DNA of 64,000 nucleotides from a bacterium (GTDB lineage: Bacteria > UBA4055), in the NCBI GenBank assembly GCA_029559475.1, contig JAKQBN010000030.1:1-64000 (forward strand), written 5' to 3'. The position numbers were made by a program, and so were the translations under genes. The notes under the pieces were generated by a model that did no database searches, was not told the origin of the DNA, and saw only the letters and a program-made list of their open reading frames with translations. Shown piece by piece: positions 50,943 to 55,143 of the stretch. The stretch's first letter is position 1. Every line of letters starts with the position of its first letter.

Positions 50943-51300
50943 TTATTTGTGATTGAACTTAGTAAAATATTCGTCAATTTCTGGCCTTAATTCAATTCCT
51001 ACTCGCTCAAAGATGTCCAACAAATCATTATAAGTACCTTCGCCACCTAAAAAATCCCAGAATTCATGAGCTACTTTTAATTCATTCTCAAGATCAAGCA
51101 TACCAGCCATAGTCCATCTGGTATACGGTTTCGGCTCATAAGGATTATATGGAATTGCAATTAAAGTATTTACATTGGCTTGAGGATTATCAGCAAGTAC
51201 GCAAGCAGTCCATTGAAGTAATGTTCTTTTAAATTCAATAAATCCGCCTTTATTAGGCTTTGCAGTTTTTATATCGAATAAAAATAATTCTCCTGAAATA
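50943..51300 (-). pseudogene. 3' half of a TdeIII-like restriction endonuclease gene, split by a mobile element
   Basis: The frame has no start of its own and reads SGELFLFDIKTAKPNKGGF, RTLLQWTACVLADNPQANVN, IPYNPYEPKPYTRW and on to FTKFNHK and a stop. LFDIKTAKPNK fits the (D/E)xK half of a PD-(D/E)xK nuclease and the overall sequence resembles TdeIII-type enzymes (GGNCC specificity, from memory). The upstream half is at 53055-53484. Joining the two across the element with one TA copy gives a continuous frame of 261 codons, so the gene was intact before insertion. Confidence 0.85.
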
Positions 51301-51314
51301 GTGACATTTGTCCC
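51301..51314 (+). repeat. Left terminal inverted repeat of the element
   Basis: The sequence is GTGACATTTGTCCC, perfectly inverted at the right end. The match extends to 15 bp if the outer A/T pair is counted, although that base overlaps the TA duplication. A CTTCGCGAAG palindrome follows at 51314-51323. Confidence 0.88.
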
Positions 51315-51361
51315 TTCGCGAAGTGTTATATTACAAATATAAGGCTAAACTGGAGGGGAAA

Positions 51362-52207
51362 ATGACAAAAAAGGAAACAGAGCTTCAAAGATACATAGAT
51401 AAGACAAGCGAGGGAGAGTTTCTGTACGAGTTGGCAAATTCGTATGAGCTCTCCCCGATTTTAAGTAAAAACATCCTTCAAACAGCCAAAACCTGCCTTC
51501 TCCAAAGCAAAGTACTTCAAGCCGGACAGATAGAATATCACTGCGTAAGTATCGATGAAAAAAGCGGGAAGCAGATGCTTGATATGAGCAAGATAAAAGT
51601 TATTCTGACTCTAAAGGACGAAATCGAAGATATAACTACTTTAAGCGTGGAAGGCAGAAGCGTATATCGTCAGAATAAAATTCAAAGGATGACTGATGAG
51701 GCTATAGCGCAAAACGGCATATTAAGTCAGGAAGATCTTAGTATGCTGCTGAATGTAAGCGTGAGAACGATCAAGCGTGATATTCGTAGAATAAAGATCA
51801 GGAATATTGAAGTGATCACCCGCGGGACCTATCACAATATAGGAAGGGGACAAACGCACAAGACACGAATAATCAGCCTATTTCTTGAAGGATGCACATA
51901 TACTGACATCAAGTGGAAAACGCATCACAGCACAGGATCAATCAAGAGGTATCTTGATAGCTTCGGAAAAGTTCTGATGTGTGTGGAGTATGGTATTAAG
52001 GACAAGTCAGAGATACGATCTGTAACAAATCTGTCTGAATATCTGATATGCCAGTACCTGGATATACTCAAATCTGCAGAAAAAAGTAAAGTGAAATCAG
52101 AAAACTTGGATATGCTTAAACAGCAACTGTCATATAGATATGGTTCAAAAAAAACGATCGTTTACGATGGTCTGAGAGCGGAAGCTACGACAGGAGGCTG
52201 GAAATGA
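51362..52207 (+). CDS. DUF1670-like helix-turn-helix protein, first gene of the element
   Basis: The 281-residue protein has no signal or membrane segment. The N-terminal part (about 1-110) is mixed alpha/beta. The second half holds successive helix-turn-helix-like units: ILSQEDLSMLLNVSVRTIKRD, then GQTHKTRIISLFLEGCTYTDIKWKTHHSTGSIKRYLDSF, and a third, IRSVTNLSEYLICQYLDIL. The pattern matches the DUF1670 family as I remember it. No DDE, serine or tyrosine recombinase signature is seen. A longer frame begins inside the terminal repeat, but GGAGGGG before ATG 51362 fixes the start. It overlaps the next gene by four bases. It probably recognises the element ends or drives its movement. Confidence 0.75.
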   Translation: MTKKETELQRYIDKTSEGEFLYELANSYELSPILSKNILQTAKTCLLQSKVLQAGQIEYHCVSIDEKSGKQMLDMSKIKVILTLKDEIEDITTLSVEGRSVYRQNKIQRMTDEAIAQNGILSQEDLSMLLNVSVRTIKRDIRRIKIRNIEVITRGTYHNIGRGQTHKTRIISLFLEGCTYTDIKWKTHHSTGSIKRYLDSFGKVLMCVEYGIKDKSEIRSVTNLSEYLICQYLDILKSAEKSKVKSENLDMLKQQLSYRYGSKKTIVYDGLRAEATTGGWK

Positions 52208-53001
52208 ATCTGAACAATATACGGGACAGATATGAAAGCATAAACAAACGGAACTTCAGATCAGCTTTGATAAGCCTTTTAGAAAACGATTATAAAATTT
52301 TAGGATCAAGAAAAATCTTATCCATGCTTGCAGAGGACATTGAACAGCTTTATAACGAATTTAATCCTAAAATATCTGAAGTCGGCTTTGGTGAGATCGT
52401 ATTCAGGACAACAAAAGATGATGGTCAAAGACAAAGTTACGGTAAGAAGACAGAAGATTATGCGTCAACGACAGTGATACTGCCATTGATAACAAAAGAT
52501 GATGTTGAGCGCAGAATTTATTTCCGCAAAGGCGACAGAAACAGTAATTACGAGCACAGAGAGTCAAGGGACATAGAAACTATGGTAAGGCTAATCAAAA
52601 GCGCAAAGGAGCAAGGCGGATTACTCACCGGAGCGGAAGTAAGTGTTCTGATGAACAGAAGCCTCAGTACCATCAGAAAATATCTTGATGCTTACAGGAA
52701 TAAAACAGGTGAAATACTTCCGCTGAAAGGATATGTGCTTGATCAAGGCAGCCTGCCTACTCATAAAGGCATAATCGTATCGCTTTATGAGCAGGGAATA
52801 TCTCCGTCCGATATTGTTTTAAAAACTTCACACAGCCAAAGCGCGGTTGATCGCTACATCGGGCAATACGATCAGATTAAGAAGCTCATTAAAAAAGGTT
52901 TAAATGAGCGTGAAATTAAAGATATTACGAGAAGGTCATTGAAAATCATCAGAGAATATGTTAAATTGTATAAACAATTAAATCCGGAAGTGAAAAAATG
53001 A
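52204..53001 (+). CDS. DUF1670-like helix-turn-helix protein, second gene of the element
   Basis: The 265-residue paralogue of the preceding protein has the same plan. The N-terminal half contains many charged residues (RKGDRNSNYEHRESRDIETM). The C-terminal half has LLTGAEVSVLMNRSLSTIRKYLDAY, THKGIIVSLYEQGISPSDIVLKTSHSQSAVDRYIGQY and a third, LNEREIKDITRRSLKIIREYV. The shared block (T)HK-x-(R/G)-I-I-x-S-L-(F/Y) links the pair. The two would be made in equal amounts through the ATGA overlap and may work as a heteromer. The function is unknown; its only context here is the mobile element. Confidence 0.75.
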   Translation: MNLNNIRDRYESINKRNFRSALISLLENDYKILGSRKILSMLAEDIEQLYNEFNPKISEVGFGEIVFRTTKDDGQRQSYGKKTEDYASTTVILPLITKDDVERRIYFRKGDRNSNYEHRESRDIETMVRLIKSAKEQGGLLTGAEVSVLMNRSLSTIRKYLDAYRNKTGEILPLKGYVLDQGSLPTHKGIIVSLYEQGISPSDIVLKTSHSQSAVDRYIGQYDQIKKLIKKGLNEREIKDITRRSLKIIREYVKLYKQLNPEVKK

Positions 53002-53040
53002 AGATTATTTACTACCGCGCTTCGCTTGCTTACTTCTCAG

Positions 53041-53054
53041 GGGACAAATGTCAC
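53041..53054 (+). repeat. Right terminal inverted repeat of the element
   Basis: The sequence is GGGACAAATGTCAC, the exact reverse complement of the left end, starting 40 bases after the stop of the second gene and followed by the duplicated TA. Confidence 0.88.
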
Positions 53055-53484
53055 TAATGTAAAAAGATTCAAGCATGACATCTACTTTTGTAGCCTTAAC
53101 AACTTTCATCTTACCTTTCTGGCAAACTTTTCTTATCGCATTGATTTCTTCGGGTTTACAAGGTTTTACATTTGCTGCGGTTAAATCATCCATAATATCT
53201 TGAATTACTCTTTGAGCATCTTCACTGATATTAACACCAGCTTTAGCTTGTGCCGTTGCGTTTTTGAAATTTTTACTGGCTAATGCGAGTGCGACAGGTT
53301 CAAATATGCTGGTACCAAAATTTGTATTCAATGATTGAATAAAAGAGAACAATGCGATCCTGTCACTGCCTAGTAGTCTTGTATGGAACGGCATTGAAGC
53401 TGGTTCTGGATTATAATTTTTGAATTTATGCCTCAAGCTATTTCTTAAGACATCTTCTATTTGTTTTATTTGATTACTATCCAT
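53055..53484 (-). pseudogene. 5' half of the split TdeIII-like restriction endonuclease gene
   Basis: It begins MDSNQIKQIEDVLRNSLRHK and continues through MPFHTRLLGSDRIALFSFIQSL to KVDVMLESFYI (143 residues), which supplies the first acidic residue of the PD-(D/E)xK site. The frame then runs into the element and ends at a TAA at 53005 after 16 foreign residues (SDICPLRSKQAKRGSK, encoded by the element end). The truncated protein lacks the DxK lysine and cannot be active. The start lies 33 bp after the methyltransferase stop, in the same operon orientation. Confidence 0.85.
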
Positions 53485-53517: not shown

Positions 53518-55143
53518 TTACTTCCTCTTCAAGTGAAATATTATTTCCGAGTAGGCACTTTTATCTCTTTCGGTACGGTTGAGCACTGGTCTTTTGAACT
53601 GATTTACAATTTTCATATCTGCATTATCTGCGATAGTTGGATATAAATTATATTTATCGTTTGCTACGAGAAACACATCATAATCCTTTACAAAGTACTT
53701 TTTTACATTGTTCAAAACATCGCTTATGCCTTTAACATAGCTATCTTTAGCTTCTCGGCCTTGACCTTTGAAAAGAGGTCCGATTTCAAGCTCGTCATTC
53801 CTGTCGAATCCGAAAAGATCATAAGCGTAGGCATGCTGTTCATGATAATCAATTAAACCTACATAAGGAGGTGATGAAAATATCCCGTTTATTTTCTTTT
53901 TTGAAACAAGTTTTGAAAATTCAGGATCCAATTTTTTTAAACCGTTGACTATATCAATCGTTCTGCTGTCACCGGTCAGGCAAGTATGAAATGTTTCTTT
54001 TTTTAGCTTTGAGTAATCTTCTAAGCGCTTTACAGTGTCTTTAGCGTATCTTTCCCACCAGCTCAAAATTGAAAATAAAGGTTTGCATATTTTACCGTGT
54101 TTTGAACAGTAATATGTCGTCGTTACAGGCTCGAAAAGAGTTGCAAGATCTGCATGAGTAGTTGCTCTGCAACTTCTGATAGTCCTGCTTAATATTACGC
54201 TTACAATTTCTTTCGTATCCGAATTAGCTATTTTCTTTATCTCATTGTGCACTATTTCAATTTCTTCTCTGATGTGCTCAGAATACCATTTGTCGAGAAA
54301 TGAGCCTTCTTTGCTTTGTCGCTGCTTGATTTTATACTCAGCTACTAATTTTTTGAAGATCGGTAAGAACTCTTTTTCTTTTTCAGCTCCATAAGTATCT
54401 TCATCTACCATTTTACGCTTAATATTGTAACGGTATTCTGGAGACGGAAAATGTTTTAGATTAAAATCATATAGCTCGTGTAATAATTTTTCTTCAAATT
54501 CTACAGTATGATTATCTTTCAAGAATAATTTTAGTTTTTTAGAAATTTCGCTTATAACTTTTAGCACTTCATCATAGTTATAGTCTTTAACTTTACATTT
54601 AGCTATCATAGAATTGAATGCTGAAACATCAATCCCTATTGAATGGATTCCAAGTTCGCAAGCTTGTACCATTGTAGTGCCGCTGCCTGAAAAAGGATCG
54701 AGTACTATATCACCTTGTTTGAAGTAAATCTCTTTTTTGAAATCATCAACATGCGCGTCTAAAAAATACTCAACCAGTTGAGGTATAAATTTTCCTTTGT
54801 AGGGATGTAATCTGTGAACATGTTTTGTTGTGTCTGATTCTTTATACTGATCAAATGACAATGCCCAATTAAGATCATTTCCAAGTTCTTTTTTCCATGT
54901 ATCTACTCTGGATTCCTTAAAACCCGCATAATATTCGGCAAGCTCTTCTTTAACAACCATAGTCGATCCATTTTCGCCAATTTTTTTTATTCTACCGTAC
55001 TGGACTAAATAAGATATATTTGAAGGTGTTACATTTTTCCCTAGTAAATCTGAAGCCCAATCGCTTGCTTCCTTTATTGACAATAATTCTGACATTTTCT
55101 TTACCTGCTTCATGTGCAATTTATCTGTCTTTTCAATCTTCAT
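53518..55143 (-). CDS. DNA methyltransferase of the disrupted restriction-modification system
   Basis: The 541-residue product has an N-terminal helix-turn-helix-like segment (about 20-75, LSIKEASDWASDLLGKNVTPSNIS). SAM motif I is DPFSGSGTT (149-157) and catalytic motif IV is SSPPY (423-427), which indicates an amino-methylating enzyme (N4-cytosine or N6-adenine), with a large helical insert between. It is intact, while its partner nuclease gene next door is broken by the mobile element, so it now acts as an orphan methylase that should still protect or mark the same sites. The exact start is uncertain because no strong ribosome site is visible. Confidence 0.88.
   Translation of the reverse strand: MKIEKTDKLHMKQVKKMSELLSIKEASDWASDLLGKNVTPSNISYLVQYGRIKKIGENGSTMVVKEELAEYYAGFKESRVDTWKKELGNDLNWALSFDQYKESDTTKHVHRLHPYKGKFIPQLVEYFLDAHVDDFKKEIYFKQGDIVLDPFSGSGTTMVQACELGIHSIGIDVSAFNSMIAKCKVKDYNYDEVLKVISEISKKLKLFLKDNHTVEFEEKLLHELYDFNLKHFPSPEYRYNIKRKMVDEDTYGAEKEKEFLPIFKKLVAEYKIKQRQSKEGSFLDKWYSEHIREEIEIVHNEIKKIANSDTKEIVSVILSRTIRSCRATTHADLATLFEPVTTTYYCSKHGKICKPLFSILSWWERYAKDTVKRLEDYSKLKKETFHTCLTGDSRTIDIVNGLKKLDPEFSKLVSKKKINGIFSSPPYVGLIDYHEQHAYAYDLFGFDRNDELEIGPLFKGQGREAKDSYVKGISDVLNNVKKYFVKDYDVFLVANDKYNLYPTIADNADMKIVNQFKRPVLNRTERDKSAYSEIIFHLKRK

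Follow-up and report, generated by a model that had tools for sequence, protein, structure and literature searches.

A mobile element with two DUF1670 genes prefers the stop codons of type IX sorting-tail genes and likely encodes its own recombination machinery

Introduction

Elements of the IS1111 type have subterminal inverted repeats of 11–13 bp with asymmetric terminal extensions, and insert at a chosen target sequence (PMC11187229), while IS110/IS621 elements use a short core dinucleotide and prefer repeated genomic sequences (PMC11208160). Insertion at repeated, harmless genomic sequence is likewise described for the REP-targeting insertion sequences, i.e., ISPsy8, ISPpu9, ISPpu10 and others (PMC1525189).

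Here we describe an element that consists of two DUF1670 genes between inverted repeats, located in the window, by which we mean the whole 64,000-nucleotide stretch of DNA that was analyzed. The anatomy of the element comes closest to that of IS1111: the inverted repeats are subterminal, the extensions are asymmetric (0 bp on one side and 9–10 bp on the other), and the target is chosen. On the strength of this comparison it may work like IS1111, but it does not belong to that group. In contrast to IS1111 and IS110, it lacks a DEDD RuvC-like transposase and a C-terminal serine domain (PF01548, PF02371), carries two genes, and duplicates TA; furthermore, its non-coding ends of about 61 and 62 bp are too short for a guide RNA of published size. 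A search of these ends for a guide RNA gave no match to the target better than that of shuffled sequences, and no Rfam match.

The original prediction, which was made from the window sequence alone, likened the element to IS630/Tc1-mariner. The likeness holds for the TA target, its duplication and the terminal inverted repeats, but is weak when based on TA alone, and the anatomy is nearer that of IS1111-type elements; compared with IS630/Tc1-mariner, the DUF1670 element has no DDE domain, has asymmetric ends, and makes a strong choice of a roughly 20-bp target. With the REP-targeting insertion sequences it shares insertion at a repeated, harmless sequence; however, the DUF1670 element targets the end of the coding sequence, with its stop codon, in genes for secreted proteins, and its own proteins belong to a different family. 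A literature search returned no paper naming DUF1670 (PF07900), and hence no function is on record there.

Limits and parts of the element

The element spans 51301–53063 (1763 bp) and contains two DUF1670 genes only, with the right limit taken from comparing an occupied with an empty site between two sister genomes. Its parts and the gene that it interrupts are as follows.

50943–51298, minus strand: interrupted RE_TdeIII gene, C-terminal part (Pfam PF09520 positions 143–242)
51277–51300, plus strand: look-alike of the sorting-tail target motif, AATAAAAATAATTCTCCTGAAATA (rank 3 of 8,589 TA sites)
51299–51300, no strand: left TA copy of the target duplication (occupied versus empty site, sister genomes)
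51301–51314, plus strand: left inverted repeat, GTGACATTTGTCCC
51362–52207, plus strand: gene A, DUF1670 protein of 281 aa (Pfam PF07900, E = 2.1e-48)
52204–53001, plus strand: gene B, DUF1670 protein of 265 aa, 4-bp overlap with A (Pfam PF07900, E = 4e-46)
53041–53054, minus strand: right inverted repeat
53055–53063, no strand: right terminal extension, TAATGTAAA, inside the element (in eight other right ends; missing from the empty site)
53064–53065, no strand: right copy of the target dinucleotide, AA here and TA in other copies (empty site and other right ends)
53066–53484, minus strand: interrupted RE_TdeIII gene, N-terminal part (Pfam PF09520 positions 2–140)

The inverted repeats are perfect over 14 bp, and together with the TA outside each of them they form a 16-bp perfect match. 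These repeats had been called in the original prediction, as had the two overlapping genes and the restoration of the host frame on removal, and all three agree with our data; excising the element leaves an open frame in the RE_TdeIII restriction endonuclease gene. The span of 51299–53056 that was originally given is, however, too short at its right end. The TA duplication is real, but the empty site assigns the right-hand TA (53055–53056) to the element and not to the target duplication, and the empty site together with eight right ends places the end at 53063. The host frame is kept with either right boundary (53054 plus TA, or 53063), because the two differ by 9 bp; only the limit at 53063, however, makes the TdeIII Pfam profile contiguous (S140, I, S, G143), and on this spacing and the empty site in the sister genome the boundary at 53056 was rejected. 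In the window copy, the duplication carries one mismatch, with TA at 51299–51300 and AA at 53064–53065.

A DNA methyltransferase-like gene (53518–55143) adjoins the broken TdeIII endonuclease gene and looks intact. Judged from sequence, the element looks to have inactivated the restriction half of the TdeIII system, with the modification half apparently intact.

Occupied sites, empty sites and leftover repeats

The two-gene element is genuinely mobile, in agreement with the insertion that had been proposed. The sister genome G002 (Candidatus Delongbacteria record DMTS01000170, L023) carries the same element at an unrelated locus, with 93% identity from one repeat to the other, and this site is empty in G001, a genome of the same genus (L125). 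The empty site reads AAAATGCTTCTGCTTAAATAGGGAATAATTATTTG, and the occupied site reads AAAATGCTTCTGCTTAAATA, followed by the element from GTGACATTTGTCCC to GGGACAAATGTCACTAATGTAAA, followed by TAAGGAATAATTATTTG; comparison of the two demonstrates that TA is duplicated and that the right end lies nine bases beyond the repeat. In three genomes, another eight right ends, including one leftover site with a single repeat, all carry TAATGTAAA followed by TA and A or G. The elements of G070 and G386 have 10-bp extensions instead, GAACATGAAG or GAACTTACGG, which are again followed by TA[A/G].

Three element copies are present in G070, two of which are broken by 100-N scaffold gaps, and at least seven contig ends in G007 stop about 70–85 bp inside the element, as expected for a repeated element collapsed by assembly. 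Near-exact matches to the repeat in the window genome are limited to the two ends of the element, a lone leftover repeat and one site that is probably due to chance. The only annotation of DUF1670 is that of a domain whose function is unknown, and the proteins are full of DNA-binding domains, which would fit a fixed pair of host regulators that lies between repeats by chance. This explanation is scarcely credible: it is already refuted by the empty and occupied sites, and is contradicted by the interrupted restriction gene, by copies at different loci and several per genome, and by contigs that break at element ends.

A single repeat with TA on both sides ends four sorting-tail genes (G000:C60, G002:C70, G003:C219 and G005:C54); the leftover-repeat loci are L006 721–734 (G000:C60), L059, L094 and L119, and two of them are at seemingly orthologous genes. 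In the G005:C54 leftover, GTGACAAATGTCAC, the outer halves of the left and right repeats are joined to each other, and TAATGTAAA is kept. The leftovers look like deletions between two near-palindromic repeats, produced by a recombinase or by slippage.

Target choice

In genomes that encode sorting tails of type IX secretion (T9SS), the repeat time and again adjoins the final codons of a gene whose product ends in a T9SS type A sorting tail, a target choice that was missed by the original prediction. The tails before the stop read KMLLLK, KMILMK, KMVFVK, KMLLVK, KMLLLK, KMLLMK, RMVLMK, KMVVVR and KMILLK. TIGR04183 scores above its cut-off in nine of the ten target genes scanned and just below it in the tenth, and Pfam (PF18962/FlgD_ig) agrees with the sorting tail for most of the ten. 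The insertion TA is the TA of the stop codon, and insertion there is harmless because a new TAG arises with the G at the start of the repeat.

Under a target matrix trained on 15 other sites, with the window site left out, the insertion site in the window ranks 3 of 8,589 TA positions, which implies that the DNA sequence itself is read and that the insertion into the restriction gene took place at a look-alike site. The elements of the G186 phylum and of G148 are exceptions and are not at recognizable sorting tails.

The DUF1670 proteins

A and B match Pfam DUF1670 (PF07900) with 165 and 158 bits, respectively, against a cut-off of 25, and are homologous over their full length (hhalign E = 1e-46), so that their proposed relatedness is upheld. 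The original prediction had recognized no known recombinase in them, and we likewise obtained no match to a known recombinase family in Pfam, NCBIfam, PHROGs, PADLOC, PDB sequence and fold searches. For serine recombinases, no resolvase/recombinase family was found in Pfam, and structural matches are confined to the helix-turn-helix part. No DDE family was found in Pfam, and the only NCBIfam match to an IS630 transposase, a weak one (E = 0.035), covers 36 helix-turn-helix residues; the DEDD transposase families PF01548/PF02371 gave no Pfam match at E up to 1.

AlphaFold models, built from shallow alignments of 10 and 9 sequences (pTM 0.45 and 0.47; pLDDT 79 and 75), contain, besides a small alpha-beta region at the N-terminus, a winged helix and another two helix-turn-helix units, which is consistent with the helix-turn-helix-rich character noted originally. 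Fold searches with Foldseek and VIA-align returned mainly DNA-binding domains, none with a significant E-value, and in these models from about 10 sequences neither program saw a known-transposase fold, including the hidden RNase H that the original prediction had considered, or any other nuclease fold.

Across the 19 aligned pair proteins, the only invariant residues are D90, R109, H166, H189 and Y197, and R109, H166, H189 and Y197 never vary in 22 pair proteins. Three solitary relatives keep D90 and R109; D159, G161, S/T165 and H166 are changed in them, with loss of the D-x-G-x-x-x-[ST]-H motif, and H189/Y197 vary. Such a loss is expected for a motif that is needed for movement rather than for DNA binding alone, although the number of sequences is small and all three could go back to one shared loss. 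The invariant residues may also be DNA contacts.

The invariant R, H, H and Y occur in the same order and with similar spacing as in an alignment of E. coli XerC/XerD/FimB/FimE, and H189-S...Y197 and the G177-to-H189 spacing resemble a GHS...Y box, as if DUF1670 belonged to a known recombinase class, e.g., the tyrosine recombinases, and had diverged strongly. We consider this improbable. The R-K-H-R-H/W-Y domain of tyrosine recombinases, which the R/H/H/Y set resembles only in part, is not detected as a Pfam or NCBIfam integrase match, the motif lies within a helix-turn-helix with the same spacing in ordinary regulators, and hhalign against a XerC/XerD/FimB/FimE profile (small, with four members) gave a probability of 0.3%, which leaves the link by profile comparison unsupported.

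Proposed mechanism

Our preferred reading, which we hold to be likely, is that of an autonomous insertion element in which the DUF1670 pair provides both the DNA-binding and the recombining machinery. A and B would attach to the near-palindromic repeat close to either end (core CA-NN-TG), pair the element ends, and recombine at TA directly beside one repeat and 9–10 bp beyond the other. To choose the target, they would read some 20 bp of DNA with AAATA at the end; in T9SS hosts, this sequence is the 3' end that recurs among genes for secreted proteins, [K/R]M[VIL]xxK-stop. On excision, the predicted circle junction is ...GTCACTAATGTAAA-TA-GTGACA.... We infer that A and B act alone and that catalysis resides in DUF1670 itself, where D90, R109, H166, H189 and Y197 would form or support the active site, perhaps with Y197 as the nucleophile. 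Against this reading speak the lack of a visible catalytic fold in the AlphaFold models, the possible role of the invariant residues as DNA contacts, and the mismatched duplication of the window copy (TA/AA).

The main rival is a trans-acting helper enzyme: the DUF1670 pair would only bind the repeats and the target, and a recombinase of the host or of another mobile element would cut in trans, as with a non-autonomous element that carries its own regulators. The mainly helix-turn-helix predicted structure is in line with this, as are the solitary DUF1670 genes that look like regulators beside palindromes and one G007 right end with an IS3-type transposase adjoining the repeat; moreover, the genomes are drafts, so the helper might be encoded elsewhere. 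On the other hand, no other gene with the same repeats occurs in the window genome, the repeats of the other scanned genomes belong to DUF1670 elements, remnants and one nested-looking IS3, and in several phyla the element again consists of the pair only, with no partner shared among them. IS3 elements are not known for TA duplication. We regard a helper as rather unlikely, yet clearly less so than a diverged tyrosine recombinase. Passive carriage by a full transposase with the same repeats, which the original prediction had raised, was rejected after no such gene was found in the genomes scanned.

Returning to the pair as the recombinase, we lean slightly towards a new recombinase class, that is, a two-protein, helix-turn-helix-built system with invariant D/R/H/H/Y, recombination at TA, protein-DNA reading of about 20 bp, and T9SS sorting-tail stop codons as a safe harbor. 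Should A and B act alone, they would constitute a recombinase class without recognizable DDE, DEDD, serine, tyrosine or HUH chemistry, present in several bacterial phyla. This would amount to protein-guided insertion of 1.8 kb at a defined sequence with genes left unbroken, and would explain a domain of unknown function.

Distribution and relatives

Many phyla have DUF1670 genes, mostly as adjacent pairs, in a small fraction of their genomes, and the domain also occurs in Methanosarcina acetivorans. Conserved repeats flank the pairs in many genomes, and pairs between related repeats (core CA-NN-TG) are found in at least four phyla. The flanking repeats are GTATCATWTGACCC in G070 and G386, a GTCAATTGAC core in G148, GTGACATATGTCCC in G186 and G401, and, less clearly, TGCCANNTGGCA and related sequences in G388 and G396. 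A and B form separate clades that each span phyla, which indicates that the pair is old and travels together. A search for homologues in phages, plasmids and viral contigs found none.

Solitary DUF1670 genes (L088 1894–2706, L089 1350–2165 and L042 2564–3376, all on the minus strand) are flanked by palindromes such as GTGGTTAATACCACATAC, and have probably been domesticated as regulators, with loss of the H166 motif. L038 2–2475 encodes two DUF1670 proteins of unusual length (390 and 442 aa) in which the domain is partly duplicated.

Nested in the tail of a DUF1670 element is an insertion (L036 1881–3882) that has repeats of its own, GAGGTAGTTTAA, and carries a broken DruA/DUF4338 gene; the DruA/DUF4338 open frame in the G186 element was rejected as a component, being a nested insertion with its own repeats. 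In a G007 copy, an IS3-type transposase gene (L112 1517–2755) lies immediately internal to the right repeat; the contig ends before the other side, and the gene is likely nested as well. Upstream of gene A, a −35-like TTGACC is located inside the repeat, 17 bp before TATATT (L034 2488–2580, L035 2638–2690), and binding to the repeat may also repress the element's own promoter.
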